From Balneolaceae bacterium (GTDB taxonomy: Bacteria; Bacteroidota; Rhodothermia; Balneolales; Balneolaceae): DNA of 64,000 nt. The DNA lies in NCBI GenBank assembly GCA_034521495.1, contig JAXHMK010000004.1, positions 496,001 to 560,000 on the forward strand, given 5' to 3'. Of the stretch, positions 11,784 to 36,652 are shown piece after piece. Below the pieces are notes generated by a model. The model was given only the letters and a program-made list of their open reading frames with translations. It was not told the origin of the DNA and made no database searches. The translations under genes and the position numbers were made by a program. The stretch's first letter is position 1. Each line of letters begins with the position of its first letter.

Positions 11784-11924
11784 AGGTTAAAAATTTTATA
11801 ACGAGTTATTTGATAGAATCTATAAGATAAGGTAGTTCGGTTTGATACAAAAACATACAGGCATTTGTTTATAATAACTTAACCGCAGGTAATTAGGAAT
11901 AAATCGATCTCTCAGAGAAACAAA

Positions 11925-11965
11925 AAACCCCTGTAAGATCATAAATCAAAGCCTCACAGGGGTTT
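11925..11965 (-). terminator. Terminator copy beside the left att site
   Basis: Stem AAACCCCTGT / ACAGGGGTTT with an A run on the left (a U run for minus-strand transcripts). It is nearly identical to the terminator downstream of the intact tRNA-Phe (48770-48810), including the loop, so it is the chromosomal half of the original tRNA terminator left behind by the insertion. Confidence 0.8.
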
Positions 11966-11974
11966 AGGTATGTG

Positions 11975-12007
11975 TGGGACCGGGCGGAATCGAACCGCTG
12001 ACACATA
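11975..12007 (-). repeat. attL: tRNA-Phe 3'-end fragment
   Basis: Thirty-odd bases matching the 3' end of tRNA-Phe on the minus strand (acceptor arm and T arm), with small differences at the inner end (CGCTGACACATAG instead of CGCCGACACACGG). Together with the terminator to its left it repeats about 80 bases found at 48770-48850. This is the outer boundary of the foreign DNA on the left side. Confidence 0.85.
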
Positions 12008-12009
12008 GC

Positions 12010-12067
12010 AGCTAATTTTATTACAATCAAATAAGCTAATTTTCATACATTTGAATAAGCTAATTTT
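12010..12067. promoter_or_regulatory. Three 24-bp-spaced direct repeats before the Fic gene
   Basis: AGCTAATTTT occurs at 12010-12019, 12034-12043 and 12058-12067, exactly 24 bp apart; the last two share AATAAGCTAATTTT. A 10-bp palindrome (CTAATATTAG, 12072-12081) follows, 13 bases before the start codon. The layout is that of an operator array, plausibly bound by the winged-helix domain of the gene it precedes. Confidence 0.6.
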
Positions 12068-12094
12068 AAAACTAATATTAGAATTAAATTTTTA

Positions 12095-13654
12095 ATGGCT
12101 TCTCCACAAGAAAAACTTGCAGAATCACTTGAAAAGCTTAAAGAGCTTCAGGTTGAAAATGGAATAGCTGCCATACGATCTAAAGAACTATCTCAAACAC
12201 ATCGGGAGAGATTATTGAGAAATGGATTCATAAGACGGGTTATGAAAGGATGGTATATCCCAACGGATCCAAGTGAAGGACCTGGAAGCAGCACTTCATG
12301 GTATACATCTTTTTGGGGGTTTTGTGCAAAATACTTAGCACATCGTTTCGATAATAAGTGGTGTATAGCTCCTGAACAATCTCTTTCATATTGGGTTGGT
12401 AACAGAAAAGTACCTTCACAGCTCATTGTACGATCCCCAAAAGCAAGAAATAAACCGACTACGCTACTACATGATACCTCAATCTTAGATATCAGGGCAG
12501 AACTGCCTTCAAAGGATGAAATTGAGCAGATCGATGGATTAAATCTTTATTCAGTTGCTTTTGGACTCATTGCTTGTTCGCCTCGCTTTTTTAGAAATGA
12601 ACCAATAGATGCAAAGGCAGCTTTAGAAATGATACGTGATTCATCTGAAATACTACGTCCACTACTTGAGGGAGGGCATAGTACAATTGCGGGAAGAATA
12701 GCAGGGGCTTTTCGAAACATCGGTCGGGATAGAATTGCAGATGAAATTATCAAAACAATGGAGTCTGCTGGTTATGAAATCAGAGAAAGTGATCCATTCA
12801 ATAGAAAAACTGATATTGCAAAAATAGACAGAAAAAATTCGCCGTATGTAAATAGAATGAACTTGATGTGGGAAGAAATGCGAGAAGAGGTTGAAAAAGT
12901 ATTCCCTGATTCACCTGGAATTCCTAAAAATGCTGATAAGTATTTGAAAGAAGTTGAAGATCTGTTTGTAACAGATGCCTATCATTCTCTTTCTATAGAA
13001 GGATACAGAGTAACTTCTGAATTGATAGAACGAGTTCGAACAGGAGATTGGGGCCCTGAAAATATTGAACAAGACAGAGAACACAGGAATGCTATGGCAG
13101 CACGTGGTTATTGGCAAGCATTTCAACCAGTGAAAGCGTGTGTTAAAAAAGTATTAGAGGGTAAAAATGCAGGCAAAGTTGTAGATGAAGACCATGGCAA
13201 TTGGTATCGTGAATTATTCGCTCCAAGTGTGACGGCGGGAATCATAAAAGCGACTGATCTTGCCGGTTATCGTTCTGATCAAGTATGGATACAGAACTCT
13301 ATGCATGTACCACCCCGAAGTGAAGCCGTTCGGGATATGATGCCTGCTTTTTTTGACTTATTGAAAAAAGAGGAAAGTGCTTCGGTTCGGGTTGTATTAG
13401 GGCATTTCATATTTGTATACATACATCCGTATATGGATGGAAATGGACGTATGGCAAGATTTTTAATGAATGTGATGCTTGCATCAGGCGGGTATCCGTG
13501 GACGGTCTTGCCGGTAGAGGAGCGAGATGAATATATGCAATCACTTGAGGAAGCCAGTACATCCAATAATATTTCAAGGTTCGCAAAATTTATTGCTCAT
13601 CACGTAGAGGAAGGGATGAAAGGGAATCCTGTAGCTAAAGTTCAAAGCAAATAG
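12095..13654 (+). CDS. AbiEi-like winged helix fused to Fic domain
   Basis: Protein of 519 residues. Residues 1-60 resemble the winged-helix start of AbiEi-type antitoxins (LRNGFIRRVMKGWYIPTDPS), followed by an AbiEi-like middle part to about residue 200. The C-terminal half is a Fic AMP-transferase: active-site motif HPYMDGNGR at 444-452. A Fic inhibitory motif of the form S-x3-E-G (SLSIEG, 298-303) precedes it, which is the class II arrangement with the inhibitory helix in the same chain. Expected action is to AMPylate or otherwise modify a target under tight self-inhibition, with the winged helix probably binding its own promoter. It is the only gene of the small island and is intact. Confidence 0.87.
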   Translation: MASPQEKLAESLEKLKELQVENGIAAIRSKELSQTHRERLLRNGFIRRVMKGWYIPTDPSEGPGSSTSWYTSFWGFCAKYLAHRFDNKWCIAPEQSLSYWVGNRKVPSQLIVRSPKARNKPTTLLHDTSILDIRAELPSKDEIEQIDGLNLYSVAFGLIACSPRFFRNEPIDAKAALEMIRDSSEILRPLLEGGHSTIAGRIAGAFRNIGRDRIADEIIKTMESAGYEIRESDPFNRKTDIAKIDRKNSPYVNRMNLMWEEMREEVEKVFPDSPGIPKNADKYLKEVEDLFVTDAYHSLSIEGYRVTSELIERVRTGDWGPENIEQDREHRNAMAARGYWQAFQPVKACVKKVLEGKNAGKVVDEDHGNWYRELFAPSVTAGIIKATDLAGYRSDQVWIQNSMHVPPRSEAVRDMMPAFFDLLKKEESASVRVVLGHFIFVYIHPYMDGNGRMARFLMNVMLASGGYPWTVLPVEERDEYMQSLEEASTSNNISRFAKFIAHHVEEGMKGNPVAKVQSK

Positions 13655-13719
13655 ATTAAAACATTTCTATTCGCGCACAGAAAATTCACTTGAAAAAGTG
13701 TGGGTAAAACATTCTATAG

Positions 13720-13737
13720 TGTCCCATACGTGTCCCA
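13720..13737. repeat. Putative integrase arm sites, small island
   Basis: TGTCCCA occurs at 13720-13726 and 13731-13737, start to start 11 bp. The same spacing is seen for the GTACCCAAAT pairs at both ends of the large island. Position just inside the att terminator fits arm-type binding sites of a tyrosine integrase. Confidence 0.5.
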
Positions 13738-13772
13738 AAATGGAAATGGAATCGAATTTAATCAAAAATAAT

Positions 13773-13813
13773 AAAGCCCTGAAAGCTCATAAGTATATGG
13801 CTATCAGGGCTTT
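13773..13813. terminator. Element-borne terminator next to the middle att
   Basis: Ten-bp stem AAAGCCCTGA / TCAGGGCTTT. It occupies the same place relative to the tRNA 3' fragment as the terminators at 11925 and 48770 but has a different sequence, so this element brought its own terminator for the tRNA it once completed. Confidence 0.75.
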
Positions 13814-13822
13814 ATATATGCG

Positions 13823-13868
13823 TGGGACCGGGCGGAATCGAACCGCCGACACACGGATTTTCAGTCCG
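13823..13868 (-). repeat. Middle att site: tRNA-Phe 3'-end fragment
   Basis: Forty-six bases identical to the 3' part of the intact tRNA-Phe at 48820-48865, from the discriminator base through the T arm, variable region and anticodon arm. Identity ends abruptly after the anticodon stem. This is the junction between the small island and the integrase end of the large island. Confidence 0.9.
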
Positions 13869-14031: not shown

Positions 14032-15271
14032 ATGCCAAAAACCAAGCTTACTCATCAGTCAATTAAAGGATTGTCAACTCCGGAGAAACCTACAGAATAC
14101 TACGATACAAAAGAAACGGGCTTAATACTAAGGTTATCAAAAGCCGGAACTAAAACATTTGCATACAGATATCAGATCGGGGACAAAAAAAGACGAATGA
14201 CACTGGGTAAGTTCCCAGCTATAAGTTTAGCGGAGGCAAGGCAAAGAGTTCAGAAAATCAAAGTTCAAGTTAACGACGGAATAGATCCACAGGTAGAAAA
14301 GAAAAGAAAAAAGAGAAAAAGGGCTGAGAAGAAGATAACATTGCTCTATGCGGTTAATGAATATAAGAAGCGACACCTACCGAAATTGAAACAGTCAACC
14401 CAAGATGATTATGAAAATCGGATTAAACATATTGTAAAGGGGCAGGGTGAGGGTATTACAAAATCAAGAGGCCTACCTTCGGATTTGGAATTGAAAGATA
14501 TTAAGCGGGCTGAAATTTTAGAACTCTTAGAAGGCATTGCCAAGACAGCTCCTACACAGGCTCAACGTGTGCAGGCAATCATATCTGGTGTTTACAGTTT
14601 CTCTATTGACCGTGGTTGGATTGACTTTAATGTGGCCAGAAATATAAATTTTAAGCCTCGCAAAAGAAAGAAGAAAAAGAAGTGGCAAAACATTGCATTT
14701 GACGATGAACAAATACGACTTTTATGGAAAAATTTTTGTGAATACAATCAACCAGTTGGAGCTTGGTTTAAATTACTTATGATATTAGGCCAGAGAGCTG
14801 GCGAAACCAGGAAAATGGAATGGAAGCATATTAACTGGAAGAAAAATGAGTGGTATATACCAGGGCCAAATGCAAAAAATGATCGTAACCACTTTGTACC
14901 ACTAAATGAGAGGGCCTTAAATGTACTTGAAGAAATGAGAAAGCATACCGGTAAAAAAGAGTTTGTTTTCTTAAGTCCGGTAAAAAAAGATAGGCCCATC
15001 GGCCATCAGCAAAAAGCAGCTGAAAGAATAAGTGAGCGATCAGGTGTGAAGGATTTTAATATTCACTCATTACGTACTACTGTTTTGACGAGAATGGCAG
15101 CCTTGGGTATTTCCCAGCATGTAGTATCAAAGTACTATAATCATACAACGACACGGTACGGCGAGTAAAATTACGGCTATTTATGACAGGTATAATTACA
15201 GTCAAGAGAAGCGTGAAGCAGCAGAAAAATGGGGATTAGAACTCAATAGAATTATAAATGGAGGTAAATAA
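14032..15271 (+). pseudogene. P4-type tyrosine integrase, frameshifted
   Basis: Phage P4-like site-specific integrase with the DUF4102-like N-terminal domain (GLSTPEKPTEYYDTKETGL, YRYQIGDKKRRMTLGKFP) and the catalytic core with the first Arg in ILGQRAGETRKMEW and the HSLR box in NIHSLRTTVL. The frame is open to a stop at 15168, after SKYYNHTTTRYGE. One base later in phase the expected C-terminus continues as SKITAIYDRYNYSQEKREAA and on to a stop at 15271, and this part holds the catalytic Tyr. A single extra base near 15155 therefore cuts off the catalytic residue. As written the enzyme is inactive, which would leave the island fixed unless the shift is a sequence error. Confidence 0.88.
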
Positions 15272-15804: not shown

Positions 15805-16119
15805 TTGACAAGTATTCTTGAAGAAATTTATATGCAAGAATTTCCTCAGGAACTTCAGTACTGTAAAGGACCAAGTAGCTGCAAATTACGTAGCATGAGT
15901 GCAGCTATAGGAAATCCGGCATTCAAAAAAAATAAATGGAAAGCACCAGAAGGTTTTTATAAGCGTGCAACCGAAATTAAAAGGGACAATCCCAATTTTG
16001 GCCAGGAAGGAATATATGAAGAGCTAATGGATGAGTTTTACAGTGATCCCTCAGATGAAGACGATAAACCTTCATTTCCAACGGTTCGAAGAAGACTAAA
16101 AGAAAGGCATATATTCTAA
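15805..16119 (+). CDS. Small unknown protein
   Basis: Open frame of 104 residues with a TTG start. The middle reads AFKKNKWKAPEGFYKRATEI, followed by an acidic segment (DEFYSDPSDEDDKPSFPTVR) and a basic end (RRRLKERHIF). The last part could be a helix-turn-helix-like tail, but this is not clear. The same frame appears open upstream into decayed sequence, so it may be the end of a longer broken gene. Function unknown. Confidence 0.4.
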   Translation: MTSILEEIYMQEFPQELQYCKGPSSCKLRSMSAAIGNPAFKKNKWKAPEGFYKRATEIKRDNPNFGQEGIYEELMDEFYSDPSDEDDKPSFPTVRRRLKERHIF

Positions 16120-16258
16120 AAAAATCACAATTATTCACTATTCATCATCGAATATCACAACTTTAATGCCAATACTGAAAATCCTTTTTTTGTTATCAAT
16201 GGCTATTTCTGGGAGTTTGTAAACGCAATCAGTTAGTTATAAACTCTAAAAAATAGTT

Positions 16259-16468
16259 ATGAGTAATATTGATTTACTTTCCCCAAAGGAAGCATCAGAA
16301 AGATTAAGCATACCAATCTCTACTTTATACAGGTGGATTTCAGAAGGTAAGTTTCCGCGTCCTATCAAAATCGGACCTCGCAGAACGGCCTTTAAAATTG
16401 AAGACATCATAGAGTGGAGAGAAAACCAAGAGGAAGCCAAAAGTATTTTGCACCGGGAAGATGATTAA
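16259..16468 (+). CDS. AlpA-family excisionase/regulator
   Basis: Protein of 69 residues with the AlpA/MerR-like winged-helix motif: LLSPKEASERLSIPISTLYR followed by WISEGKFPRPIKIGPRRTAF and DIIEW. AlpA proteins act as activators of P4-type integrases or as recombination directionality factors. Its place about 1 kb downstream of the island integrase fits that role. Length is normal for the family. Confidence 0.82.
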   Translation: MSNIDLLSPKEASERLSIPISTLYRWISEGKFPRPIKIGPRRTAFKIEDIIEWRENQEEAKSILHREDD

Positions 16469-16647
16469 GAGATTGATGCAAAGTACAAGATCTCTTTTAA
16501 AAAATCGGTTTCTTCAATCAATGCCATAAATCCGGTTCAAAATTACTTTTGTATTGTTATCAAGAATTGTCAGAAGTCTTGAATTGAAGTCGGCACCATG
16601 CAGATATATAATATGGGTGTTAATGATTCAACATAACCCATTACGAT

Positions 16648-16923
16648 ATGGACGAAATAATTGTCACGAAGCGAGAAACACTCTTAGAATTAATCTCCGA
16701 AGTGGTACGAGAGGAATTGGAAACTCACATGGAAAAAGTGGAAGTTTCTGATGGTAAAAATGAAGTACTCACAAATAAACAAGCAATGAAGCACCTCCAC
16801 GTGAGCCGATCAACACTTCAAAGATGGAGAAAGAGCGGAAAGCTTCCTTATCGAAAAGTTGAAGGGAAAATACTTTATACAAAATCCGATTTGAACGAAC
16901 TCCTGGAATACGCCGCTGTTTGA
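16648..16923 (+). CDS. HTH_17 helix-turn-helix protein
   Basis: Protein of 91 residues. The N-terminal 45 residues are a helical arm (TLLELISEVVREELETHMEK) and the C-terminal half is an excisionase-type helix-turn-helix (VLTNKQAMKHLHVSRSTLQR, WRKSGKLPYRKVEGKILYTK). Such proteins are common next to mobile elements in Bacteroidota. A similar protein lies at the opposite end of the island (48383). Role as regulator or excision factor is inferred. Confidence 0.78.
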   Translation: MDEIIVTKRETLLELISEVVREELETHMEKVEVSDGKNEVLTNKQAMKHLHVSRSTLQRWRKSGKLPYRKVEGKILYTKSDLNELLEYAAV

Positions 16924-17008
16924 AAGTGGAATCAAAACAGATCTCCATTGAATAAACTTCGTCGGCCGATAAACTTACCTGGTTTGAAATCATAAAAGAT
17001 AAATCACT

Positions 17009-17157
17009 AAAAAATCTATCCTCCCCGCCTACCTTTCCTCATCCAACCCCTATTAACAGTTGATTTGATCAAATACTCACTAAACCGGGGATATACAAGC
17101 GACTTATACCATTAATAAGAAATTTAAGCCGCTTAGAAGCGAAATTTGAAACCCGCC
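17009..17157. repeat. Repeat R1, first copy
   Basis: About 150 bases that recur at 19038-19187 with roughly nine in ten bases the same (by eye). Both copies contain the perfect 12-bp palindrome ATTTGATCAAAT and the segment AAATTTAAGCCGCTTAGAA. No coding potential was seen. Confidence 0.75.
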
Positions 17158-17181
17158 ATTAAATTTAGAGTTCAAACCCGC

Positions 17182-17364
17182 TTATATAACCTCAAAAGGC
17201 ATATCTGTGCCCGATAATAGATATTCCTTTACAGATTCAATGTTCTTATAAATAAAATGAAACGAAGAGAGAGTGCCACTATTGAAATCAGGAATCCCAG
17301 ATAAATAGATCAAAGCTACTTTAGTATAAAAGAGATCTCTTGTAACTACCGGCCAAGATAGCAC
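17182..17364 (-). pseudogene. Possible coding remnant
   Basis: Open stretch of 60 residues ending IPDFNSGTLSSFHFIYKNIE, then SVKEYLLSGTDMPFEVI. The composition is protein-like, but there is no start region or partner gene that supports it. It lies between the R1 repeat and the 1.2-kb module. Confidence 0.2.
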
Positions 17365-17562
17365 GAAGATTTATTATTGATTTGTGTCTGGCACAAGGGA
17401 AAAAGCCATCATGCTTGCGAGACTATCAATACAGTAACGTACAATCAAAGCTGAAGGTCCAACTCACTGTGGATGTTTAAACTGCGAGCTCCCAGAACGT
17501 TTAACCCCAATCAAAAAGCGTTAATTATTCGTCTATAATTGAGTCATTAAGTGCAAATCCTA

Positions 17563-18751
17563 AACCTAAATTATTTAACCGGGTTTTCCGATGGGGGAAT
17601 CAATGGCCCAATTATCAAAAAGACATCTAACCAAAGGCACTTTTTTAACTGTAAGTCATTGATATTACTTATTTAATTATGGTTAGATTTTTGGTTAGAA
17701 ATGGGTTAGAATAGGGTTATGAAGGTTAGAAATGGGTTAGAAAATTAGAAAGTATCTAACCCTATTTCTAACCAAGAATTATTCAATAAAAACAAACACT
17801 TATGGAAAAGGTTAGAAAGGTTAGAAACTCAAACACCCCCAAGTCAAACCCCCCAAAAATCACCATTTCAAAATATATGTGTAAAATATGTGTATTAAAT
17901 TATTAATGATTTCCGGGTATTTTACCAAATATATTTAACCTTAGATAAGTGGCTTTTTGGACTTTTAGAGTTTAAAATTGAAGCCAGCAAGGAGTGCCGC
18001 TACATGGGTGTCTCAAAAAGTTTATTCTTATCTCTGACCCTGTATTTTCTACTTTCTTAGCGCCTACAGTGATCCCCCTCGTAGTGTACCTCTATGAATG
18101 CACTATGGGATGTTTATGATCGTCGCTTTGAATGATTAACAGGTCTTTATTTTTCAAATAATTGCTATCAAGCTCTACACAAAACCGTGATAAGCAGCAT
18201 TTTAGGTCAAAGAGAGAATGAGCAGAATTTTTTTGATAATTAATTTTAAAAATATTGGAGTGGTTGTTGCTTCTCGGGCCTGTTTTAGAGGGAAAGTGAA
18301 TAGAAATTCAAATTTTGAACGTGTTCGTAGTTGTAAAATCGTACTGTTAAGTAGCCGGAAGGGAGGTTCGCCAATCAACAGGTATTTTTTTGATTTTTAA
18401 ACGATCATACCCGGTGACGCCACTGTTGGTTAAAAAGTTGAATATTGGTTGAATAGCGGCAAAAGAACGCCAATTAATAAAATTTTGACTGGCTTTCCGT
18501 AGAGATAAACCGGAAGCCATTGCAAGCTTCGTCCAAAAAATTCAGATTATTGCTCAAATTATTTCCTTCACCCGTGGATGACTGGTTGTATGAAACAACG
18601 TCGGCGTTAATGGTCCTGAAAAGTTACTTTTTAAAAAGGTTTCTTTTGCTTTAGAAGGGCCATCGTGTGTTGTTTTACCGTGAAAATTGGCCAATTTTTA
18701 AAATTTTAGGAGGGATTTTGTTCTATACATTCATAAAAAACCTAAAAAACT
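17563..18751. repeat. 1.2-kb non-coding module, copy A
   Basis: No open frame of useful length in either strand, yet it is repeated at 20189-21380 with most bases kept. Three stretches are identical in both copies: 18024-18116 (93 nt), 18329-18369 (41 nt) and 18531-18616 (86 nt). It starts with an array of TTAGA-containing heptamers (17681-17825), then the conserved blocks. Possible stems include ATCCC/GGGAT with TAGTG/CACTA at 18072-18111, GGCTTTCCG/CGGAAGCC at 18491-18518, and the palindrome AAAATTGGCCAATTTT near 18683 followed by an AT run. The pattern fits a large structured RNA or a DNA site for replication, transfer or recombination; which of these cannot be decided from sequence. Confidence 0.7.
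17681..17773. repeat. Heptamer array of module A
   Basis: GGTTAGA at 17681, 17693 and 17724; GGGTTAGA at 17703 and 17734 with a degenerate GGGTTAT at 17714; inverted TCTAACC at 17755 and 17767. The outer pairs are each spaced 12 bp. The segment 17724-17741 can pair with 17755-17773 with one bulge, making a long stem. Two further GGTTAGA copies follow at 17810 and 17819. Confidence 0.75.
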
Positions 18752-19037
18752 TTAGAGTTTAGAGTGGTTGACTGCAGTACAATTGCATTGATTTCATAAA
18801 AATGGATGGCAGTTCAAGCCGATTTGCCATCAAAGGTAAATAAGCCAGGAATGAAAACCGGAAAATTAGTGATAGAGAGCTAATAGAGTTGAACGTGAAC
18901 ACATTATAAACCACAGATATTGGATAAAACAATTCACTTATCGTAAAAAGACAACTACGTTTTTTGAATTTTCTACAACTACTAATATCAAACACTCTAT
19001 GAGATTTTGATTTTGTAAATCAAAAAAGATAGATCGT

Positions 19038-19187
19038 AAAAAAAATCTATCCTCCCCGCCCACCTTTCATCATTCAACACCTATCAACAGTTGATTTGAT
19101 CAAATACTCACTAAACCGTGGATATATAAGAAAGCTATACCACTGAAAAGAAATTTAAGCCGCTTAGAATCGAAATTTGAAACCCAC
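19038..19187. repeat. Repeat R1, second copy
   Basis: Second copy of the block at 17009-17157, including the palindrome ATTTGATCAAAT. It is preceded by a small hairpin sequence (TTTGATTT / AATCAAA near 19005) that also occurs before the recombinase remnants at 19693 and 21650. Confidence 0.75.
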
Positions 19188-19735
19188 TTTTTTGAGTTTA
19201 GCAGAAAATGCGGTTATGAGCCGTCAGCGTAGGTTTGCAGTGGATATGACAATTTTTTTGAAAATTCGAGGATTGTATAATTGATATTCAGATACAAGTA
19301 GTAGCTATGGCTGAATATTTTGCTCCGAGCAGTAGAGAAGCGAGGTTCGGTAAAAAATCAAAAAAATATGGTCTCCATATCAAAAAAGAAATTCAGCGAG
19401 CTTGCATGCGTGGGATAAAAATTAAATAATTGGCTTCGCCCGGCCGGATTATGGGGAGCTTATTGAAAGTATAGCAATCAATCGATTCCTCTGGGTGGAT
19501 GAAGAACGTTGAAGCCTTCAGAATTTAAATTTCGAGACCACAGTTCAATGTGGCCGCCAACGCTACTTACGGTTAAGCTTTGTCCGCGTGTGGATTAAAA
19601 CCAATTGGACTTCAACGAGATTACAAATTGTTGAAAATCGACAATTATTTGATTTTTAATCGCAACACAAATCAAAGTATCTTCTGATATTTTGATTTTG
19701 ACATCAAAAAAGATTGAAGGCTAAAAAGCAATATT

Positions 19736-20082
19736 CCAACCCACATTTTCCTTTGTAAACGGAATTTTCTTCCATACAATACCATCCGTTGACCAGAGCA
19801 ATGTTGTGGTAATGAAACGAATATCTATGAACAGAGGTCTCTGTAAACGGGAATTGTTCCGGGGTCTTTACATTCGCGGATACGTTGGCCGTTTCAAGGG
19901 TAGCTGACACCTGTAAGCGAACCGGTCGTGTAAACGATCTACAGAGATATGCAGAACGGACAGGCTACTCTACTGAACGTGTTACTGAGAAGGATGCCCA
20001 CCTGACTTCCAGGCAACGTAAAAGTAAAATGGAAAGGTTTAACTACAAAAGAGACACAAAATTCTCTATGGACCGAACATGA
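19736..20082 (+). pseudogene. Truncated tyrosine-recombinase remnant, copy 1
   Basis: Heavily decayed. Readable parts are KRELFRGLYIRGYVGRFKG and, in another phase, LQRYAERTGYSTERVTEKDA followed by HLTSRQRKSKMERF. They match the remnant at 21700-21934, and thus the C-terminal end of a tyrosine recombinase. The usual middle segment with the H-x-L-R-H box is missing between RYAERTG and YSTERVTEK, and the position of the catalytic Tyr is changed to Asp. Confidence 0.65.
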
Positions 20083-20188
20083 ACGGGCAGACGATATGTA
20101 TGCCCAGGGATACATTTGTAAACAGCATCCATTACGCCATTGAAATGAATCATATAGACTTGAAACCATCCGTTTTTCAACAATTTGC

Positions 20189-21380
20189 CAAACCTAAATT
20201 ATTTAACCGGGTTTTCCGATGGGGGAATCAATGGCCCAATTATCAAAAAGACATCTAACAAAACGGTATTTATGAGATGTAAGTTACTGTTTTTATTTAT
20301 TTATTTAACGTTAGATTTTACGTTAGAAATGGGTTAGAAAAGGGTTAGATACGTTAGAAAAGGGTTAGAAAATTCGGAAGCGTCTAACGTACTTTCTAAC
20401 GTTAAATTATTCAGTAAAAACAGGTACTTATGCAATTTGTTAGAATGTTAGAAACTCAAACACCCCCAAGTCAAACCCCCCAAAAATCACCATTTCAAAA
20501 TGTATGTGTAAAATATGTGTATTAAATAATTTATGATTTTCGGGTGCTTTACTAAATATATTTAACCATAGATAAGTGACTTTTTGGACTTTTAGAGTTT
20601 AAAATTGAAGCCAGAATAGGAGTGCCGCTACATGTGTGTCTCAAAAAGTTAATTCTTATCTCTGACCCTGTATTTTCTACTTTCTTAGCGCCTACAGTGA
20701 TCCCCCTCGTAGTGTACCTCTATGAATGCACTATGGGATGTTTACGATCATCGGTTTCAATGATTAATAGGTTTTTATTTTTTAAGTAATTGATATCAAG
20801 CACTACATAAAGCCGTGATAAACAGCTTTTTGAACCAAAGAGAGAAGGAGCCGAAATTTTTTTGAATATAAATTTTCAAAAATTTTGGAATGGTTGTAGT
20901 CTCTCGGACCCGTTTTCGAGGGACGTTGTGTTAAAATTCAAATTTTTAACGTGTTCGCAGTTGTAAAATCGTACTGTTAAGTAGCCGGAAGGGAGGTTCA
21001 CCAATCAATAGGTATTTTTTTGATTTTTAAACGGTCCTACCCGGTAACGCCACTGTTGGTTAAATAGTTGAATATTGGTTGAATTGCGACAAATGAACAC
21101 CAATTAATAACATTTTGACTGGCTTTCCGCAGGGATCAACCGGAAGCCATTGCAAGCTATGTCCAAAAAATTCAGATTATTGCTCAAATTATTTCCTTCA
21201 CCCGTGGATGACTGGTTGTATGAAACAACGTCGGCGTTAATGGTCCGGAAAAGTTACTTTTTAAAAAGTTGCTTTTTGCTTTAGAAGAGCCTTCTTGCGC
21301 TGTTTTACCGTGATAGTTGGCCAATTTTTAAATTTTTTGAGAGGGTTTGTTCTATTCATTCGTCAAAAACCTAAAAAACT
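20189..21380. repeat. 1.2-kb non-coding module, copy B
   Basis: Second copy of the module at 17563-18751, same orientation. The blocks 20652-20744, 20959-20999 and 21161-21246 are identical to those in copy A, while the parts between differ by substitutions and short indels. The heptamer array is present but its outer members read CGTTAGA / TCTAACG instead of GGTTAGA / TCTAACC. The hairpin at the end of the module is kept with a changed loop (CAGGGATCAA instead of TAGAGATAAA). No coding frame was found. Confidence 0.7.
20309..20401. repeat. Heptamer array of module B
   Basis: CGTTAGA at 20309, 20321 and 20352; GGGTTAGA at 20331, 20342 and 20362; inverted TCTAACG at 20383 and 20395. Order and spacing equal those of module A. 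Only the non-GGG members changed, and they changed in both orientations together. Confidence 0.75.
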
Positions 21381-21699
21381 AAAGAACGATGTGTAGTAAT
21401 TCGTGATCGTCCGAATAGACAGCAAAAGCGACCTTTAAAATTTAAACTTTTGTCCGTAGAAGGCGAATTGCCAACCAATGTTAACAATTCGATCCTGAAA
21501 ACTTAATAATTGATGACTGATGGGTATATGGATCGAAGTTGATCTTTTTAAAGCTCAAAATTAATAGATAAAAAAATTGATTATCGGTATATGTTGGCTG
21601 TAATTATTAGGTTTTTGAACGCTACAAAAATCAAATTGACTTCTGTCTTTTTGATATCGAAATCAAAAAAAGAGGCACCTTTCTAAAACGCGAATTGAA

Positions 21700-21934
21700 C
21701 CAATACCTCTGAATTCGCGGCGATGTTGATCGGAATGAATATGCATTCATCTACACCGGCGGCCGGTTCAAGGGAAGGCCGGTAAGCGGACAGGTAGTGT
21801 ATAAAGAGTTTAAGCGGTATGCAGAACTGGCTGGCCACTCTACTCAACGAGTTACAGAGAAGTATGCACATCTAACTTCGAAGCACCTAAAAAGCAAAAT
21901 GGAAAGGCTTACTACAAAAAAAGGCAGTGGTTGA
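21700..21934 (+). pseudogene. Truncated tyrosine-recombinase remnant, copy 2
   Basis: Better preserved than the first copy: EYAFIYTGGRFKGRPVSGQV, then VYKEFKRYAELAGHSTQRVT, then EKYAHLTSKHLKSKMERLTT and a stop. EKYAHL holds the catalytic Tyr. The H-x-L-R-H box expected between RYAELA and GHST is absent, so it cannot be a working recombinase. It lies about 320 bases after module B, as the first remnant lies in the same arrangement before it. Confidence 0.75.
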
Positions 21935-22070
21935 AACCGATGTACTTTTCAGTTGGTGATCTCATTTGCTAATAACGACAAAATAAAATATTCTGCGAAA
22001 CAAAGCGACAACCTACCTGTCGTGAGAATTATACGTTATAACACCAATATTCTTACTATTAATTTCAGAT

Positions 22071-22309
22071 ATGGGAAAATATAAAGAAGGATTCAGACGG
22101 TTATCAATTTCCTTTGGAGTTCTGGGTGTACTTGTTTGGATTATTATTTTTGCTAAAGGAGGGGAATTTGGGAGATTTAGAAAAGTTCGGGCTTGGGAAT
22201 GGATACTTTAGTAGTCCTTACTTTTTTTGCCTACTTAATCCCGTACTATTTTGTCAAAGGTATTTACTGGATTTTGTCTGGATTTAGTCAAAAAACCAAT
22301 AAATTATGA
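22071..22309 (+). pseudogene. Small two-helix membrane protein, frameshifted
   Basis: Starts MGKYKEGFRRLSISFGVLGV with a membrane helix (LVWIIIF) and stops early after RAWEWIL. The other phase then reads TLVVLTFFAYLIPYYFVKGI and ends KTNKL, giving a second helix. One indel near 22200 breaks what was a protein of about 80 residues. Its stop overlaps the next gene start (ATGA). Confidence 0.6.
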
Positions 22310-22557
22310 ATAAGTTTATCGAAACAGATTGTGAAGTGATTAGAATAACTTTTGTTAATGAGGATAAACAAGATGAACCTCTTGAACGCTATATTTTGGC
22401 ACAAGATTTAAAAACAGCCATCAATATTTTTAAAGCTTATTCAAAGGATTGGGAAAATCCAATTTTAATTAATAAAGCAGAATTTGTTTCCACGATGGCG
22501 CTTTGTGACGTTCAGAGAATATCTGATAAATTCAACAAGAATTCTGAATATTGGTAA
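22306..22557 (+). CDS. Small unknown protein
   Basis: Intact frame of 83 residues, starting MNKFIETDCEVIRITFVNED and ending DKFNKNSEYW. No family recognised. It overlaps the broken membrane-protein gene by 4 bases, so the two were once a coupled pair. A repeat that recurs at 25310 follows 6 bases after the stop. Confidence 0.55.
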   Translation: MNKFIETDCEVIRITFVNEDKQDEPLERYILAQDLKTAINIFKAYSKDWENPILINKAEFVSTMALCDVQRISDKFNKNSEYW

Positions 22558-22562
22558 GGAAC

Positions 22563-22680
22563 AAGCGCATCAACTGGAAACTCAGATTTGCCGTTAGTTT
22601 CTAATGTTGCTTGTTTTGAAATATTTAGCGCGTTAATTAACTCATACTTTCTGCGGCCTAAGTGCACTGGAACGTTAGGT
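22563..22680. repeat. attC-like spacer in a cassette-like run
   Basis: AAGCGCATCAACTGGAAAC (22563) follows the stop of the 83-residue gene. A related sequence, AAGACGCATTAACTGGGAC, follows another gene end at 25310. The spacer ends in ACGTTAGGT (GTTAGGT at 22674-22680), which matches the integron core consensus GTTRRRY, 20 bases before the next ATG. The inner palindrome is weak, so this is only attC-like. Confidence 0.35.
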
Positions 22681-22700
22681 AAATCAGATTATTACCTCAT

Positions 22701-23373
22701 ATGATATTTAAAGTTACAAGATTTTGATCTCGTAGATATCAAATATGAAATCTCAATTCTGAAACGTCAATTAAACTTCATTTCTGATGAGTTTAAGAGA
22801 CAAAGAGAACAAAGTAAAAGAGCTACAGACAAAGAAATAGAAGAATCAGATTTTGATCCAAATAATCCAAGTGATGAAGCATATTATTGGTATTTAGTGG
22901 GTGAACATAGACATCTAATAGAAGTGATGTTGACCACGCATTTTGATCAATCCGTTTATAGTCTCTTTATGGTCATTGTATGAGACAGCTATAAAAGAGC
23001 TTGCAGATTTAATAAAAGGAAAAGAGAGTATTAAAAAATCTTGGTTTGATATTAATGGAAAGCATTTGACCGCTAAAATTAAAAATTACTTTGAAAAGAT
23101 TTAGATTTCCCAATCAATTTTACACCGACGTTTATTAATAATCAAAAACGATTGTCAATCTTAGAAAATGGTGTAGCTCATCATAATAGTAGATTAAATT
23201 CGATCGAAAAGATTTTAGCTGATCGTTTGGAAGGTAGTGAGATAGAGGGTATTGAATTATCAGAAATTGGAGATATTTTTGTAATAAAACCAGATTTTGC
23301 GAGACGATCATTTGATATCATAGAAAATCACTTAAACAGCATAATGAAGGATTATGAAAAAAAATATACATAG
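22701..23373 (+). pseudogene. Unknown helical protein, several frameshifts
   Basis: MIFK, then after one indel LQDFDLVDIKYEISILKRQL and FISDEFKRQREQSKRATDKE, then a second shift near 22975 into YETAIKELADLIKGKESIKK, and a third near 23100 into LDFPINFTPTFINNQKRLSI, continuing to a stop at 23373 (NHLNSIMKDYEKKYT). The pieces join into one protein of about 220 residues. Family unknown. Confidence 0.55.
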
Positions 23374-23530
23374 ACGTTAAACTTCCGAATTAAGTGGGCT
23401 GAATCTCGCCATTTCACCACAGTTATTGGTTTTTTAGTTTGTCGACTATTATTTAACAAGTTAACATTTTTTGTGCGCTGCTTATTTTCAAGACCATTAT
23501 ACCCTTTAAACAAATTATTATTTTCTTAAA

Positions 23531-24122
23531 ATGCTTTGGTCCGAAATTTTAACATCGAGTATTGTAGCTACTGTTGTAAGTGGAATTATTAGCTGGATTG
23601 GAAAAAGATATCTTGATAAAAAATTGGAAATAGAAAAAGCAAATCACACAAAGAAGTTGGAAGATTTAAAGGCAGAGAATCAAAAAGTTTTAGAAAATTA
23701 TCGAGCTCGATTGAAGAACTCTGAAATATACTTTAATCGACAACTTACTGCATGTGATGAAATCCACGCTTTATGTCAAAGTATGCTTCCTAAAAATAAG
23801 TTTCCAAATATGGAGTGGGACGATGCACTGGAAGATATGGCATTAGAAATGGAGAGAATTGAAACAGAAGCTCAAAAATTATACACAAAATTCTATTCTG
23901 TGTTACCAGATTCTATTCTTACGAAACTAAATGCATCTATTAGATACGCCGGAAGATGCAAAGTTTGAAACAGAAGTGGGTAAAGTTTCTACGACAGGAA
24001 TTAAACTTGTTGAAGCAACTTTTAATGAATTGCATGAAGCAGCTGTAAACTCGAAAGAACTTTTAGATGGTCAAAGACATAGAATTATTGATCCTCCATC
24101 TAAAAAAGTAACCGAAATTTAA
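23531..24122 (+). pseudogene. Membrane-anchored coiled-coil protein, frameshifted
   Basis: Begins MLWSEILTSSIVATVVSGII, a single N-terminal membrane helix, followed by a long coiled coil (KLEIEKANHTKKLEDLKAEN). The first frame ends after NASIRYAGRCKV at 23968, while the next phase continues EDAKFETEVGKVSTTGIKLV to a stop at 24122. One indel near 23945 separates them. No enzyme motif. Such anchored coiled-coil proteins are frequent in gene cassettes and defence islands, but no function can be assigned. Confidence 0.6.
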
Positions 24123-28919: not shown

Positions 28920-31900
28920 ATGAACCAAAGAGAACGGCTAAAAGATCTTTCATCAAATTTTAAGCTCGAAACACTTGAGCAATTTTTCCGGGATGCCAGC
29001 ATGGATTACAGGCCGGAACCGGAAAACCTGACTCGAGAAGTGGAGCCCGATCCGGAGTTCATTCAATCCATTGAAAAACTTGGAGAGATTGAATTTGAGG
29101 ATGGGCGTCGATTGGTTGTGGTTTCTTCATTGCTAACAGGGGAAATTACAGACAAAACCAGTAAGAAAAAGCAGTTCGATATCGGGTGGAAGTTCCTGAA
29201 GAAACGGTTTTATGATGCCGGGATTTTCATCTTCCGGGACGATCGTGGCCACTTTCGGTTCAGCCTGATTGTTACCAAATATACGGGGAACAAACGAACG
29301 CACACCCCTTTCCGCCGCTATACGTATTATGTACATCCCGGAAAGCCCAACAAAACGTTTATTAACCAGATTGGGAAGGCGGACTTTTCTTCCATTGATT
29401 CGATTCTGAAAGCATTTTCCATTGATGCGGTTTCGGATGACTTTTACAATGCCTTCAAACCCAAGTTCAATGAGATTTCTTCAAGTGTGCAGGGTACGGA
29501 TGATGCTAACCTGAAAGAGGACTTTGCCCTGTTGTTTGTGATACGGGTGATTTTTATCGGATTTGTGCAAAAGCGGGGATGGCTTAAAAAGAATGAGTTT
29601 TTGCAGCAGTTTTGGAAGGAATATCAAGAAACTGGTACTGAGGAGAATACACTTTACAAAAACTGGCTGGTACCCCTCTTTTTTGAGGCGTTAAACACTC
29701 AACCGGGTCATCAGGTGAAATACCGGAATAACGATTTTTCGGAAGAGACACAGCGGATTTTACAGATGGCTCCGTATTTGAATGGTGAGCTGTTCAAGGA
29801 GAAGAAAGGATATGACGATCAGGGATTGTGGATACCGGATGCTCAAATCGGGGAGTTCATTGACTTCCTGTTTCAGTACAATTTTACCATCGAGGAAAAC
29901 ACCTTTTATGATGAGGAGCTGGAGCTGAACCCGGAATTTCTGGGAATTATTTTTGAACGGCTGGTGAACAAGGAAGACGGGGCGGTTTATACTCCCAGAA
30001 CCGAAGTGGATTTTATGTGCCGTATGGGTCTGGTGAAGTGGCTGCAGAAAAATAGTTCAGCTGATACCAACGACTTGTATCATCTGTTTTTCCGGGATCG
30101 TGGACAAGATCCTGAATTTGATGAAGATCAAAAGCAGGGCGATTTTACCACGGCACAAATTCAGAGAGTTGGTGGATCTGCTCAGCAATGTAACGGTGTG
30201 TGATCCGGCTGCCGGTTCGGGAGCGTTTGAAGTGGGGATGCTGCATGTGCTCCATGATATTTTGGATAATCTATACCACCGGCATAATGCACCCAAAGAT
30301 CTGCCTGAATGGGATGATTTTGAGCAAAAGAAATCCATTATTGCCCGTTCGCTGTACGGGGTGGAAGTGAAGGAATGGGCGGTTTGGATTAACCAGCTCC
30401 GGCTGTGGCTCACCCTGTTTATTGATATGCCGGATGATTACAAGAATTCATTGCAACCGCTGTTACCCAGCCTGAATTTTAAGGTCCGCCAGGGCGACTC
30501 GCTGGTGCAGCGCATTGGCAACAAGTTGTTCCCTGGTTCAGGGGCACGCCCATCTCTCCAAAAATATAAAACGCAAGATCACCGAGCTGAAAAAGGCCAA
30601 GGTGGATTTCTTTTACAACAAGGGCGGTTCGTATGACGACTTGCGCGGAAAAGAGAACGATATTTTCCGGGCTATTTTGGATGAGGAAATTGTAGCTAAA
30701 CGGAAAGAACTGCGGGGTTTTGCCAATCCCAGGGGCGTACAAGGAAATTTACTGGGCGATTCAGGTCCCGCTCAGTCGAACATAGACCTGGATGAGAAGG
30801 AAAAAGAAAAACTGAAAGCTGAGATCACAGAACTGGAAGACCAGAAGAAGGCCCTGGGCGAAAACCATCCGCTGATCTGGAATATTGAGTTTGCCGAGAT
30901 CTTTTTTGACCGGGGTGGTTTTGATGTGGTGATCGGGAATCCGCCGTATGTACGGCAGGAAGGTATTGGAGACCCAATGGGAAATTTGGAGCCCAAAGAT
31001 TATAAGAACCAGTTGGAAGCTGCTGTCCGGGGTGATTTTCCAAAGTATTTTACTTCCGGGATTAAGATTAGCGGACGGTCTGATTTGTACACCTATTTCT
31101 ACATTCGTTCCCTACGGCTGTTGAATGAGAAAGGGAGAGCTGATCTTTATCTGCTCCAACTCCTGGCTGGATGTGGGCTATGGCGACTGGTTGCAACGAT
31201 TCCTGCTGCGCATGACCGAAGTGGACGGCATTGTGGACAACCACGCCAAGCGAAGTTTTGCCAGCGCCGATGTAAATACGGTGATTACCTTTATGGGCGC
31301 ACCCAAACAACGCAAAGACTGGATGGAAGGAACCGTTCCGTTCATTGCCTTTAAGAAGCCCTTTGAAGAAGTGATCATTGCCGACCACCTGCTCACCATA
31401 GAACACGCTAAGCAAACCATAGCCAACGATCAATTTCGCGTATTCCCGGTGCCCAAAAAGCGCTTGGTGGAAGAAGGCTCCGAGTTTAACAGCCCGGAAG
31501 ACAAAAAAATGCTGGAGGGAACCTATGTGGGAGATAAATGGGGTGGCAAATACCTGCGGGCCCCGGATATCTTTTTTACGATTTTAGAAAAAGGGGAAGG
31601 CAAATTAGAGAAATTGAAGGAGATTGCTGATATAGAATTTGGAATAAAGACAGGTGCTAACGATTTCTTTTACTTAACGAAAGAAGAGGCAGAATACCAT
31701 AAAATAGAAGAAGATTACCTCAAACCAGCGATTCTGAAAACTGATGAAATTAAGATTCCAATTTTGTCTAAAAATGATTTTGATGGGTATTTCTTTTGGT
31801 GTTCTAAGGAGAAAGATGATTTACAAGGTACAAATGCACTAAAGTACATTAACTGGGGTGAACAGCAACCCAATCGAAATCAAACAAGGTAATAGAAAAG

Positions 31901-32468
31901 GAGAATTTTATGATGGCTTTCATGAGGTAGCAAGTGTACAAAGTAGAAGTAATTGGTATGATATAGCAAAAAGAATCCCGCACCGGTTTGGTGGATTATT
32001 GCACATAATGAACGGTCTATCGCCTTTTACAATGAAGATTATGTGTGCAGTGATAATTTCTTTGAGATTACTCCATATAAATATCCGCCAGAGACATTAG
32101 CTCTATATTTATCATCAACCGTAGCTTGTTTTTATAAAGAACTACTTGGACGATCAAATTTTGGTGGTGGATTATTAAAAACCCAAAAGCCAGACTTACA
32201 GAAGATTGATGTTGTTAAGGATTTAAAAATTGATAAATCTATTCAATTTGCCTCAAATATAGTTGAATCAATCTTCAAAGAATGCGGCATCAATCCCGAA
32301 TCCGAGGTTCCCATTTCTGAGCAAGAGCCCAATCCGCTGCCCGACCGCGCCGAGTTAGACAACATCGTCTTCGACGCCCTCGGCCTCACCGAAGAAGAAC
32401 GTAAAGAAGTGTACCGGGCTGTGTGCCAGTTGGTGTGGAATAGGGTTAGTAAGGCGAGGAGTGTTTAA
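28920..32468 (+). pseudogene. Type IIG (Eco57I-like) adenine methylase/restriction enzyme, frameshifted
   Basis: One long gene of about 1,180 codons in six pieces. Piece 1 (to 30203) is the N-terminal region with ELNPEFLGIIFERLVNKEDG and YTPRTEVDFMCRM. Piece 2 holds methylase motif I DPAAGSGAFEVGM and QKKSIIARSLYGVEVKEWAV. Piece 3 has motif IV in VVIGNPPYVRQEG. Piece 4 is SNSWLDVGYGDWLQRFLLR and then the start of the target-recognition region. Pieces 5 and 6 end in LLGRSNFGGGLLKTQKPDLQ and TEEERKEVYRAVCQLVWNRV. Phase changes lie near 30160, 30530, 31130, 31860 and 31990. The family is certain; as written it is not functional. Confidence 0.85.
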
Positions 32469-32483
32469 TTAAATGAAGAGATT

Positions 32484-34057
32484 ATGAAAACGACCTATTT
32501 CACGACTTTTCAACTTGGTAACAAAGATCAAGCCATTAGAAAATTATTCTGAATTATATAAAATCATCAGAAACTGGCTTGAAAAACCAATTCGAGGTTT
32601 CAAGCTTCCAGAAAAATACAATTTTATAAAAGAGAATATTGATTATGAAAATAATGGACATCGTCTTTCAACGATGTATGATAGTTCTACAGATTTTGGA
32701 AAATATTTAGCAATAAAATATGAGCATCCGGATAGTTCAGAAGACAGACATAAAGTGGAGAACCGAAATAATTATCGGCGACAAGATAAGGGAGACGGAC
32801 AGTTCGTCTCGCATAGCAGTTCGGATATCTTACGGTGGATCTTCTCCACATTTTCGCCCGGTAAGAACGGTATAATAGTCGTCCAAGTATCAGTCAATAG
32901 TACTTTTAAATGAAATCGGTGCTTTTGAGTCACTACCGTTAATTGATGGGCATTTAAGACTTCCTGAAAGTGATATACAACAATTTGTGCATTTACTTTC
33001 TGATGAAAACAGATACCTACCAATTTTATTTATTAGTAAAGATTCAGAGACAAATCAACCAATCAGTTGATATTGATAAATTAACCTCCATGTGTTCAGG
33101 GTTGGCTTATATATTGTTGGCAGATAATAAAAATGTGACATGGAAGTTAGACGCCTTCCTTGGTGCAACTCACAACTGTTTTGATGGTGCAATAAGAATC
33201 TATTGGCCGAAATTTAAGGTCTCAGATAATCGTTTTTCACATCCATTATGGACAAGTGATAAAATTGAAAATATAAACCAAAGACCTGGTGGCTTTGAGT
33301 CCTATATTTTCAATATACTTTGCGACCATTCATCAAGTAGATTTGTGCATGAAGCACTTACTTGGGAAGGTGCAAATAGAGTCTTTAGAAAAATAGAGAT
33401 TGAAGAATTAAAGAAGGCAGGGAATAAGGATGAATGGATTGACCTTCTTGAAGATGAGAACGCGGATCTAACTGCTCGGGTTAACGGGTTTGAGAATGAA
33501 AATGATGCTTTGCGACAGGAGAACTTTCAATTAAAGTCTCAAGTTAATCAGTTTAAGTATCAATTAAATGAAAAAGATACTACTGGAAATTTATCGGAAG
33601 AACTTGAGGAGTTCGAAAGTGTTCATGCAAATTATAAATCACTTTAATGACAAATATTCTGAGTTTATTGAAATTCCAAAGAATATAACTAGTAAACGAA
33701 CATTTTGAAGATTTAGATTCTCTATTTGCCGCTTTGAAATGGTTGACACTGACCTATCGTCAAGCAAGATTAGGTAGAATTAAGTATTTCTGATTTCAAT
33801 CATAATTGCATGGAAAGTTCTGCGATTTCTTATGAGGCAAATCAATCTGATATAACAATTGGGACAATTTCCTGATGAATATAAAATGAACTATAATGGT
33901 AAAAAGGCAGTCTGCTCAAAGAGCATATCGGACAAGGATCATCTAAACAACCGAGATATACAATACGAATTGCTTTCTTTTTTGATGAAAAATATGAAAA
34001 GGTTGTTGTTGGATATATGGGGCAACATCAAAAAACGAGGGCAACTTAAAAACATGA
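32484..34057 (+). pseudogene. Large unknown defence-island protein, frameshifted
   Basis: Starts MKTTYFTTFQLGNKDQA, then pieces in changing phases: YSELYKIIRNWLEKPIRGFK, FGKYLAIKYEHPDSSEDRHK, TEIIIGDKIRETDSSSRIAV, LLNEIGAFESLPLIDGHLRL, SGLAYILLADNKNVTWKLDA, THNCFDGAIRIYWPKF, then a coiled coil (DENADLTARVNGFENENDAL) and finally IRIAFFFDEKYEKVVVGYMG followed by QHQKT. Together they make about 520 residues. I know this type only as an uncharacterised protein of defence islands; I can give no function. At least five indels. Confidence 0.55.
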
Positions 34058-34063
34058 GGAAAT

Positions 34064-36483
34064 CGTGCCAAACAGACCACATCTATACTTTCGGGGAGAG
34101 CAGTTATTAGAGGGGCGTTTTAGTTATCGCAGCAGATACACGACCCCAATAGTAACAAAGACGATAATCCAGATCCGGATTATCGTCCCATGCAGAATGT
34201 GTTCAGGCAGAGTTTGGCAAGTTTTACGCGAAAAAGAAATCTGAGAAGAGAGCGAAGAAACCCGGACATTCGGCTTCCCCATAAGGATTACATTCAGTTG
34301 AATTTTTATGGTGTCTACGATAATGCCAAATTTGAAAAAACGTATCGAGATAATTTTGGAATAAGTCCTGTTACCTTTTGGAATTTTAATCGCTCTGGGC
34401 TCTTTATCATAGAATCACCAAATCGTTTTGAAAGGTTTATCAGAGATGTCCAAACATTTATTGATGCAGATGATCCATTAGAAAACACTGGTAGTTACTC
34501 AGGTGCAATTCGGTTTATTGAATCTTTTGATGGTTATTCGACAGAAGAAATCATGCAATTAAGTGGAGCCCATCGACATGTAGTTATTGACGTCTTTAAA
34601 ACGCTTCGTTTATCCAATCAATTTTTTGTACCGGTTCGTGAACGGTTGCAAGAGTATTTAGAAGAACGAGATATCTCATATGAGTTTAATGCAACTGCAG
34701 AGATTCTCTTGAACTTACTGACCCAACTCAGGAAATATTGATTGAGATTGCTAATAATTTCGATATTATTCAGAGCATATCCTCTCATGATGCCGGAGTT
34801 ATTCGCCCTTCAAGGTTTGGGGAACCTATACGTGAATTCGGTTTTTCAGTGAATGAAACAGGCATTGATGAGCTACCTATTATTGGCATCCTTGACTCTG
34901 GTGTAAGTGATCAAACCCCATTGGCACCGTTATTGATTCAGACAACTCCCAATTTTGATCTGACAAATACGGATCCATTTACTGATGAAATAGATCATGG
35001 CACAGGAGTGGCTGCTATAGCTGCTTTAGGTACAAAGCCATACCCTGAATTTCTTGGAGAATTTGAAGCCGATGCCCAGAATTCTTCCTATTAAGATAAT
35101 TCATACTAACCATACACCCATATCTCAAAAAGGGATTCTTGAAGCCATTCGAAGGGCAAACCGAGAGTCTGGTGTACGTATTATGGTATTGGCTGTATCT
35201 TGGGACGATCACAAGAGAACGCACGAAAAACCATCAGAATATACATTTGCTCTTGATCAATTGGCAAATGAACTGGACATCCTCATTTTTATATCCACCG
35301 GAAATCGAAATGATATACTACGTGGAGTGAATGGATTTCTCAATTACCCGGATCACTTTCTTGATGAAGAATCAAATCTGAATACTCCTGCCGAAAGCAT
35401 GAATAATATTACGGTAGGAGCAATAGCCGATAATTTATCTGGAGAAGGATTATCAGGGATTTTCAATTGACAGAAGTTATCCTGCAGTATACAGTAAAAA
35501 GTTCCATTATAACTGGGCAGATGAACATCTAAAAGAAAGTATTATAAACCTGAAACTAACTAAGCCGGACATTTTAATGCCTGGAGGTGATTATCCTGGT
35601 GAAGGTTTTACAGACAGAACAGATCCAGAACTTTTCGGTTTTAAAGTGGTCTCATCAGAAACGGGAGAATATTTCGAAAAAAATGCCCGGTACAAGTTAC
35701 GCCGCTCCACTTGCAGCTAATCTTGCTGCACGATTAATGCAACAATATCCGGATATCACAAACATTCAAACAATCAAAGCCTTGATTCTAAACTCTTCAC
35801 GTGAAATAAGGTTTGGTCCTGATTTTGATAATGTACATAAACGTATAAGAAATGCAGTATGCGGTTTGGGTGTACCTGATGAATCCATATGTCTCCATTC
35901 AGATAATCACAGAGCAACGTTTATCATTGAGGGTTCAATACGACCTGAAAAGATGGAGGTATTTGAACTAAAGCTCCCTGAATATCTTCTTGAAGCTGAT
36001 AGAGACATGGGATTGCTAAAGATTCATGCCACTCTATGTTTTAAATTCAATCCCGTTTCTGAAAATCAACTTGCTTATTGTCCTGTACATTTTGCTTTTG
36101 GTTTCTTTAAGAATATACCTGTTGATGATATTCAAAACGGAAAACTTAGTGAAACGAAACTAAAGCAAGGATGGACGGAAGATTACTATTTTGCAAAAGG
36201 CATTTTAAGTAATACTCAAAAAGTTGATTTCTCAATCAGCAAACCGGATTTAGTAACAGAGGAAAATACGGTTAGAATAGGAGTGCACAGCAAGCTTCAT
36301 AAATATCTCGATGGAGGGCGTAAGACTGAAAATACACGAGAACACTCCTACTCGCTTGTGATCAGTATTGAAGAAACGACCAGAGAGGAGGTACGGATCA
36401 ACAACTTATATGATGAATTGGTAGCAATAAATGAACTTGAAGCAATTGGAGAAATTGAAATTGAACTTGAGGCTGAAACCTAA
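34064..36483 (+). pseudogene. IetS-like subtilisin-family protease, frameshifted
   Basis: S8 peptidase of about 800 residues in at least five pieces. N-terminal part begins at GTG 34064 (PNRPHLYFRGEQLLEGRFSY). Catalytic residues are readable: Asp in IIGILDSGVSD (about 34893), His in EIDHGTGVAAIAA (about 34997), Ser in PGTSYAAPLAANLAA (about 35696). A C-terminal domain of about 200 residues follows without membrane segments. With the AAA ATPase on its 3' side it resembles the IetAS defence pair, but the two genes converge here instead of forming an operon. Not functional as written. Confidence 0.75.
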
Positions 36484-36652
36484 TCAGAAACAGATTGTTG
36501 TTTCTTTTCCTTTTAATTGTGTTTATCCAATATTGAGTCTTAATAATGGGGTTAAGATGGGTTGTTTTTTGTTTTAGGTCGAACAAGCTATTCTTAATTG
36601 CACCAATTAATGTCCGCTGAATACTTGTAATAAGAAAGGCCATCTGCAAGTT

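Follow-up and report, generated by a model that had tools for sequence, protein, structure and literature searches.

A duplicated module in a tRNA-Phe island of a Balneolaceae bacterium most likely represents two orphan, SOS-marked replication origins rather than a large RNA

The origins of PICIs consist of iteron sets around an AT-rich stretch, just 3' of the primase/initiator gene (pri-rep), as laid out in the parts of PMC6092414 consulted, and the same placement is seen in elements related to the locus studied here. LexA is mentioned once in those parts, in a cited title on a SaPI operon. The oriV of SGI1, according to the consulted sections of PMC7433901, is made of iterons and belongs to a chromosomal island that depends on help for its replication; the rep gene is under the helper's AcaCD, and the word ‘LexA’ is absent from the main text in those sections. 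In Salinibacter ruber, the plasmids pSR14 and pSR31 have a related primase-helicase gene followed by short direct and inverted repeats. Their primase is 36–37% identical over 26% of its length, and a 7-mer is present 9 and 11 times (counts without a shuffle control). A LexA motif of the Balneolaeota is backed by gel shifts of Balneola vulgaris LexA on Balneola and Rhodohalobacter promoters, as given in the consulted part of PMC7739468.

We analyzed a window of 64,000 nt (the whole stretch of DNA under study) from a Balneolaceae bacterium, in which a non-coding module is present in two copies, A and B. Unlike the PICI origins, which lie 3' of pri-rep in the consulted part of PMC6092414, A and B have no primase gene, are duplicated, use two iteron variants and are followed by a LexA box. 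The surrounding island compares with PICIs in having an integrase and an AlpA-like gene. In contrast to A and B, SGI1 has kept its own rep gene and its iterons are unrelated 17-mers (PMC7433901, in part), while pSR14 and pSR31 are circular plasmids with unrelated repeat sequences. We consider it rather probable that each module is a replication origin like those located directly behind the primase-helicase gene of phage-like satellites and phage-plasmids, supplemented with a LexA operator, and that helper elements could fire it in trans. For the locus in its tRNA-Phe island, the most likely reading is two orphan origins with an SOS mark, not a large RNA. If such origins work in trans, the island would be able to outsource its replication entirely and to adapt its iteron code whenever its helpers are replaced by others. 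A natural origin pair in one genome would also make initiator–iteron co-evolution testable, and a LexA operator beside an origin would directly link DNA damage to island replication in Balneolota.

Extent and setting of the duplicated modules

The initial annotation had reported a duplicated module of ~1.2 kb without coding capacity (17563–18751 and 20189–21380), with identical blocks of 93, 41 and 86 nt. The blastn self-comparison bears out the duplication, at 88.4% identity across 1194 alignment columns, and places the units as follows:

17562–18751, plus strand: module A, whole repeated unit (blastn self-match)
20190–21380, plus strand: module B, whole repeated unit (blastn self-match)
17906–18751, plus strand: tail of module A, non-coding; without match in Rfam or, above the cut-offs, in Pfam; folds like shuffles
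20533–21380, plus strand: non-coding tail of module B; no Rfam match, no PHROG match, folds like shuffles

No ORF of at least 100 aa is present in 16119–23531. All three blocks were recovered among the A–B identical runs of at least 30 nt, at 93 (18024–18116), 41 (18329–18369) and 86 nt (18531–18616), together with runs of 70 (17562–17631), 55 (17820–17874) and 35 nt (17953–17987). When the 144 differing columns among 1193 were shuffled 20,000 times, the longest run reached at least 93 nt in 0.045% of the shuffles and the third-longest reached at least 70 nt in none of the 20,000, so the uneven identity between A and B is real. We read the identical runs as probable gene conversion between the two copies; with three sequences in the comparison, lineage-specific constraint or replacement of a block in the homologue described below are possible alternatives. 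X-masked six-frame translations of the ~850-nt A tail gave two Pfam matches, both far under the cut-offs, and the three plus-strand frames of the B tail gave no match to PHROGs. A 71-codon open frame at 20043–20255, ending in block 1, was taken as chance or relic. Pfam, PHROGs and phage records gave no match to it, it is interrupted by two stops in the homologue G068, and its weak matches (E 0.003 to 0.09) are to unrelated-looking frames elsewhere. Its last 22 codons, compared in A and G068, include 11 that are the same, 1 silent difference and 10 residue changes.

Among 92 family genomes (this one included), with up to four candidates scored in each, 11 have any match to the module, and the sole long match outside this genome is in G068 (889 nt, 73%). 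A search of public genome contigs with the module start block gave one record, Rhodohalobacter sulfatireducens WB101 (Balneolota), which points to this species as the source of G068. At the sensitivity of blastn, records of plasmids and phages gave no match to the module, and a scan of viral contigs did not find the start block.

The modules sit in an apparent genomic island, with a copy of the tRNA-Phe 3' end at either border (13773–13868 and 48770–48865). The integrase, AlpA-like regulator and att repeats at a tRNA that characterize PICI/P4-like satellites are all present when the island is taken as a whole. Its features outside the modules include:

13773–13868, plus strand: copy of the tRNA-Phe 3' part and flank, probable island end (86% match to 48770–48865)
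14032–15168, plus strand: island integrase (Arm-DNA-bind_3 and Phage_integrase, Pfam)
16259–16468, plus strand: AlpA-like regulator (PF05930, PF12728)
16648–16923, plus strand: excisionase-like HTH_17 protein (PF12728, phrog_66)
17009–17154, plus strand: repeat D5, copy 1
18955–19039, plus strand: repeat M, ~85 nt, with a TTTTGAT...ATCAAAA core (nhmmer, match by construction)
19040–19185, plus strand: repeat D5, copy 2
19638–19723, plus strand: repeat M, copy 2 (nhmmer, match by construction; also a direct repeat)
19887–20050, plus strand: tyrosine recombinase C-terminal remnant, upstream of module B
21597–21682, plus strand: repeat M, copy 3 (nhmmer, match by construction; also a direct repeat)
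21713–21931, plus strand: second integrase remnant, 73 codons open
48819–48892, minus strand: tRNA-Phe, probable island integration site (Rfam)

The nhmmer model of repeat M was built from its own four copies, three here and one in G068. Given its inverted core and changing neighbours, repeat M is possibly a recombinase attachment site. An integrase remnant similar to the one upstream of B also precedes the G068 module, and the remnant at 21713–21931 is without ~33 codons that are kept by the intact G068 integrase, which lies near a tRNA-Arg at the opposite end of the G068 island. Repeat M, repeat D5 and the remnants of integrases together suggest that several integrated units lie in a row here, in partial decay. 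A D5 motif (19137–19182; ~46–65 nt, 77–85% identical) recurs outside 90-aa ORFs in three other genomes, G012, G045 and G009 (L085, L086 and L087). Further along the island, 28920–43147 has an MmeI-like fragment (under the Pfam cut-off, with broken frames), an SNF2/PLD helicase and an AbiEi/AbiEii pair, and is probable defence cargo. A further copy of the tRNA-Phe 3' end is located at 11916–12005, and a Fic-domain gene lies between two such copies (11916–13868), like a small separate insert.

Iteron arrays and related primase-helicase elements

The iterons, with the consensus NGTTAGA, lie in the first ~270 nt of each module:

17626–17825, plus strand: iteron origin of A; 10 sites in both orientations, first base G in 10/10, AT-rich between sets
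20254–20452, plus strand: iteron origin of B; 11 sites, first base C in 5, T in 3 and G in 3

The array of A is laid out as sites at 17626, 17682–17772 and 17811–17825 with AT-rich stretches between them, and that of B is alike in an alignment judged by eye; the layout also largely resembles that of the related elements described below. Iteron cores were picked in A and then scored in the other copies. Between A and B, 59/60 core positions are kept compared with 94/140 positions between cores (Fisher 1.2e-7); the values are 60/60 and 107/140 for A and G068 (Fisher 3.9e-6), and 59/60 and 92/140 for B and G068 (Fisher 5.5e-8). Judged by these counts, change has been far rarer within the cores than at the positions separating them. 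The first base of the iteron varies among the copies: five cores in B are preceded by C instead of G, like the G018 element of another species, which has C in 6/6 exact sites. At A's 10 positions, the G068 copy has C twice and G eight times, so the switch to C is not unique to B. The iteron variants of A and B differ as if they were matched to two initiators.

In five further family genomes, the best match to the module falls within 17626–17825, and so does the match in G097, which belongs to another family. The first iteron is located 63 nt past the stop of a primase-helicase-like protein in G045 (916 aa) and in G042 (927 aa), 57 nt past that of a 915 aa protein of the same kind in G018, and 31 nt past that of a 932 aa relative in G097, 57% identical to the G045 protein. 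G009 has its first iteron 54 nt past the stop of a different, 712 aa helicase-like protein. A viral contig (L029), retrieved by the iteron pattern alone, has 4 sites located 79–280 nt past a DUF5906/primase gene. The G045, G042 and G018 proteins are identified as DNA primase by PHROGs. Against Pfam, the G045 protein gave zinc-ribbon and Toprim matches only, both under the cut-offs, and the 712 aa protein of G009 has no match to PHROGs; we apply the label ‘helicase’ to both kinds on our own reading of an ATP-binding motif. The initial annotation had left the choice between a large structured RNA and a DNA site for replication, transfer or recombination. The replication site is supported by the homology of the array to those that directly follow primase-helicase genes, and the RNA is not supported (see below). 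The case for the iteron arrays being origins is strong, and their use in trans is inferred. The primase elements of G042 and G018 (L018 and L021) encode a transglutaminase-like protein, and L021 also has several small proteins in a row whose C-terminal ends are hydrophobic, as judged by eye; these elements may represent an undescribed kind of provirus.

Several results count against the origin reading. A and B themselves do not lie directly 3' of a primase/initiator gene, and searches of this genome found no relative of the G045 primase or of the G009 helicase, so no resident helper is known. The search for a primase-replication gene covered relatives of these two proteins, and the G045 primase as query does find relatives in 11/127 genomes. 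In G068, a distant helicase-like protein of 777 aa (22% identity to both queries) is encoded ~4 kb from the module; the repeats found around it (L016, 12900–17800) were limited to two short direct pairs and a single inverted one. The integrase remnants are broken, and the match extends beyond a short piece in only 2/92 family genomes. Among viral primase relatives, which match roughly the N-terminal third of the query, none of the 80 kept out of 432 confirmed has three GTTAGA within 300 nt. Repeat counting 3' of viral primases was set aside: a 7-mer is found in at least five copies there in 8 of 55 loci, hand-picked from the 80, and proves little as other windows of the same loci reach this count in most of the 8.

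LexA-like operators

Directly 3' of the iterons, a 19-nt direct repeat is identical in A and B and agrees at 18/19 bases in G068:

17876–17894, plus strand: probable LexA operator (SOS box) of A (motif match, PMC7739468)
20503–20521, plus strand: probable LexA operator (SOS box) of B, the same 19 bases (motif match)

When reverse-complemented, the box agrees at 18/20 places with the motif of the Balneolaeota LexA regulon, TTACACATATTTTWTACATA, as given in the consulted part of PMC7739468. In this match to a validated operator motif, the modules resemble the LexA-regulated loci of the Balneolaeota. The window contains 3 LexA-like sites against 0.01 expected. With up to 3 mismatches, this genome (G000) has 7 sites compared with 10 for the reversed-pattern control, which counts against the assignment, while G068 has 7 compared with 4 for its control; the count in this genome therefore proves nothing alone. 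The only zero-mismatch sites in this genome are the two in the modules. Its five non-module sites adjoin lexA, two Y-family polymerases, a radical-SAM gene and a 95-codon gene divergent from exonuclease VII. In G068, five of six non-module sites were examined and 5/5 lie by the same kinds of genes, some of them named by resemblance. The exact pattern, with an iteron core 30–60 nt before the box, is found in 2/128 genomes of the order, only in A, B and the G068 copy, and a scan of viral contigs did not find the LexA-box block.

LexA-like sites were also seen by radical-SAM-like, S24/UmuD-like and Y-polymerase-like genes, named by sequence reading, in L009, L012 and L015. Small matches in L010, L011 and L014 were judged by eye to be chance. 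Elsewhere in the window, a LexA-like site is flanked by genes for a Y-family polymerase and a 202-aa protein (43323–45340), in a stretch 86% identical to part of the G068 island, and within 43323–45909 an SRAP peptidase gene adjoins these two genes. The stretch 43323–45909 looks like SOS cargo common to both islands.

Competing explanations and history of the modules

The origin reading corrects a plausible earlier one, that of a new large RNA. In the most specific form of the RNA reading, LexA would repress the promoter of an 850-nt tail encoding an SOS-induced structured RNA, with the identical blocks as conserved structure. The tail does lie immediately 3' of the LexA box, and A and B share identical runs of 93 and 86 nt. 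The 93-nt run, however, is 49% identical between A and G068, against 61% for the 41-nt, 40% for the 35-nt, 80% for the 70-nt and 76% for the 55-nt run. The 86-nt run is outside the blastn-alignable part of G068 (17562–18450) and reaches 37% identity when its alignment is forced. In 22 separate windows, A–B identity does not correlate with identity to G068 (Spearman −0.27, p=0.23). The proposed stems ATCCC/GGGAT and GGCTTTCCG/CGGAAGCC have no counterpart in the alignment with G068, the single homologue among the three sequences. Rfam at the gathering threshold found tRNA only in the whole window, without a module match in support of an RNA, and a permissive threshold added three weak, implausible sub-threshold matches near the modules; no Rfam covariance model places the modules among structured RNAs. 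Compared with 20 shuffles each, the tails gave folding z values of 0.61 (A, plus strand), −1.17 (B, plus strand) and 0.23 (A, minus strand), and five of seven short pieces are between −1.59 and 0.78. The iteron stretches fold well (z −2.64 in A and −3.92 in B) because their sites face each other. Alternatively, the stretch could be a hairpin with co-changing arms; in the centroid fold, the arms do not include the switched site at 20353. By these comparisons, the duplicated stretch does not resemble a gene for an RNA, the identical runs do not appear to mark a conserved RNA, and an SOS-induced RNA seems highly improbable.

The main rival to orphan origins is a decaying relic, in which origin fragments from a decayed primase-encoding satellite lie in an island hot spot, with iterons intact through recent loss of the primase and unused now. 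It is consistent with the broken integrase pieces, the partial D5 and M repeats, the failure to find a related primase in the genome and the rarity of the module. Set against this, the B–G068 cores are intact at 59/60 positions despite a primase-less junction in both, while 48/140 positions between them differ, and the first-base change in B strikes several sites alike. We regard the relic as possible, with the odds against it. Far less credible is an iteron decoy, in which chromosomal origin copies would titrate or handcuff the initiator of a parasite and protect the cell, beside the island's defence genes. The lack of a resident initiator among our searches, the two copies with two iteron variants, the island's AbiEi/AbiEii pair, MmeI-like fragment and SNF2/PLD helicase, and the destabilization of the helper plasmid by SGI1 replication (PMC7433901, in the part consulted) would all suit a decoy. 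The LexA box and island context equally fit mobility, however, and our literature search met no iteron decoys; an origin, LexA and an island are named jointly in PMC6092414 and PMC2647930.

Under the preferred reading of orphan origins, a primase-helicase from another element would bind the iterons, the AT-rich stretch would be opened by the bound protein and copying of the island would start, with the LexA box making one of the steps responsive to DNA damage. Loss of the primase gene would predate the split of two Rhodohalobacter lineages, and A and B now have different iteron variants, as if for two initiators. More speculatively, and in our judgement unlikely, the replicase-less island keeps two origins with two iteron specificities, both SOS-wired, in order to be replicated by, or to block, more than one kind of helper upon damage.

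B and G068 align without a break from the integrase remnant through to the module, and neither has a primase gene in between. As this primase-less junction is common to both, the primase was probably lost before the two lineages split, and the cores were held after its loss if the stretch descended as a unit. B–G068 identity per 100 nt is 0.73–0.91 in the integrase remnant compared with 0.51–0.83 in the module, which hints at a mosaic history in which the stretch may not have descended as a unit. Within the tail, 18120–18180 is 82–85% identical in G068, with less conserved flanks.
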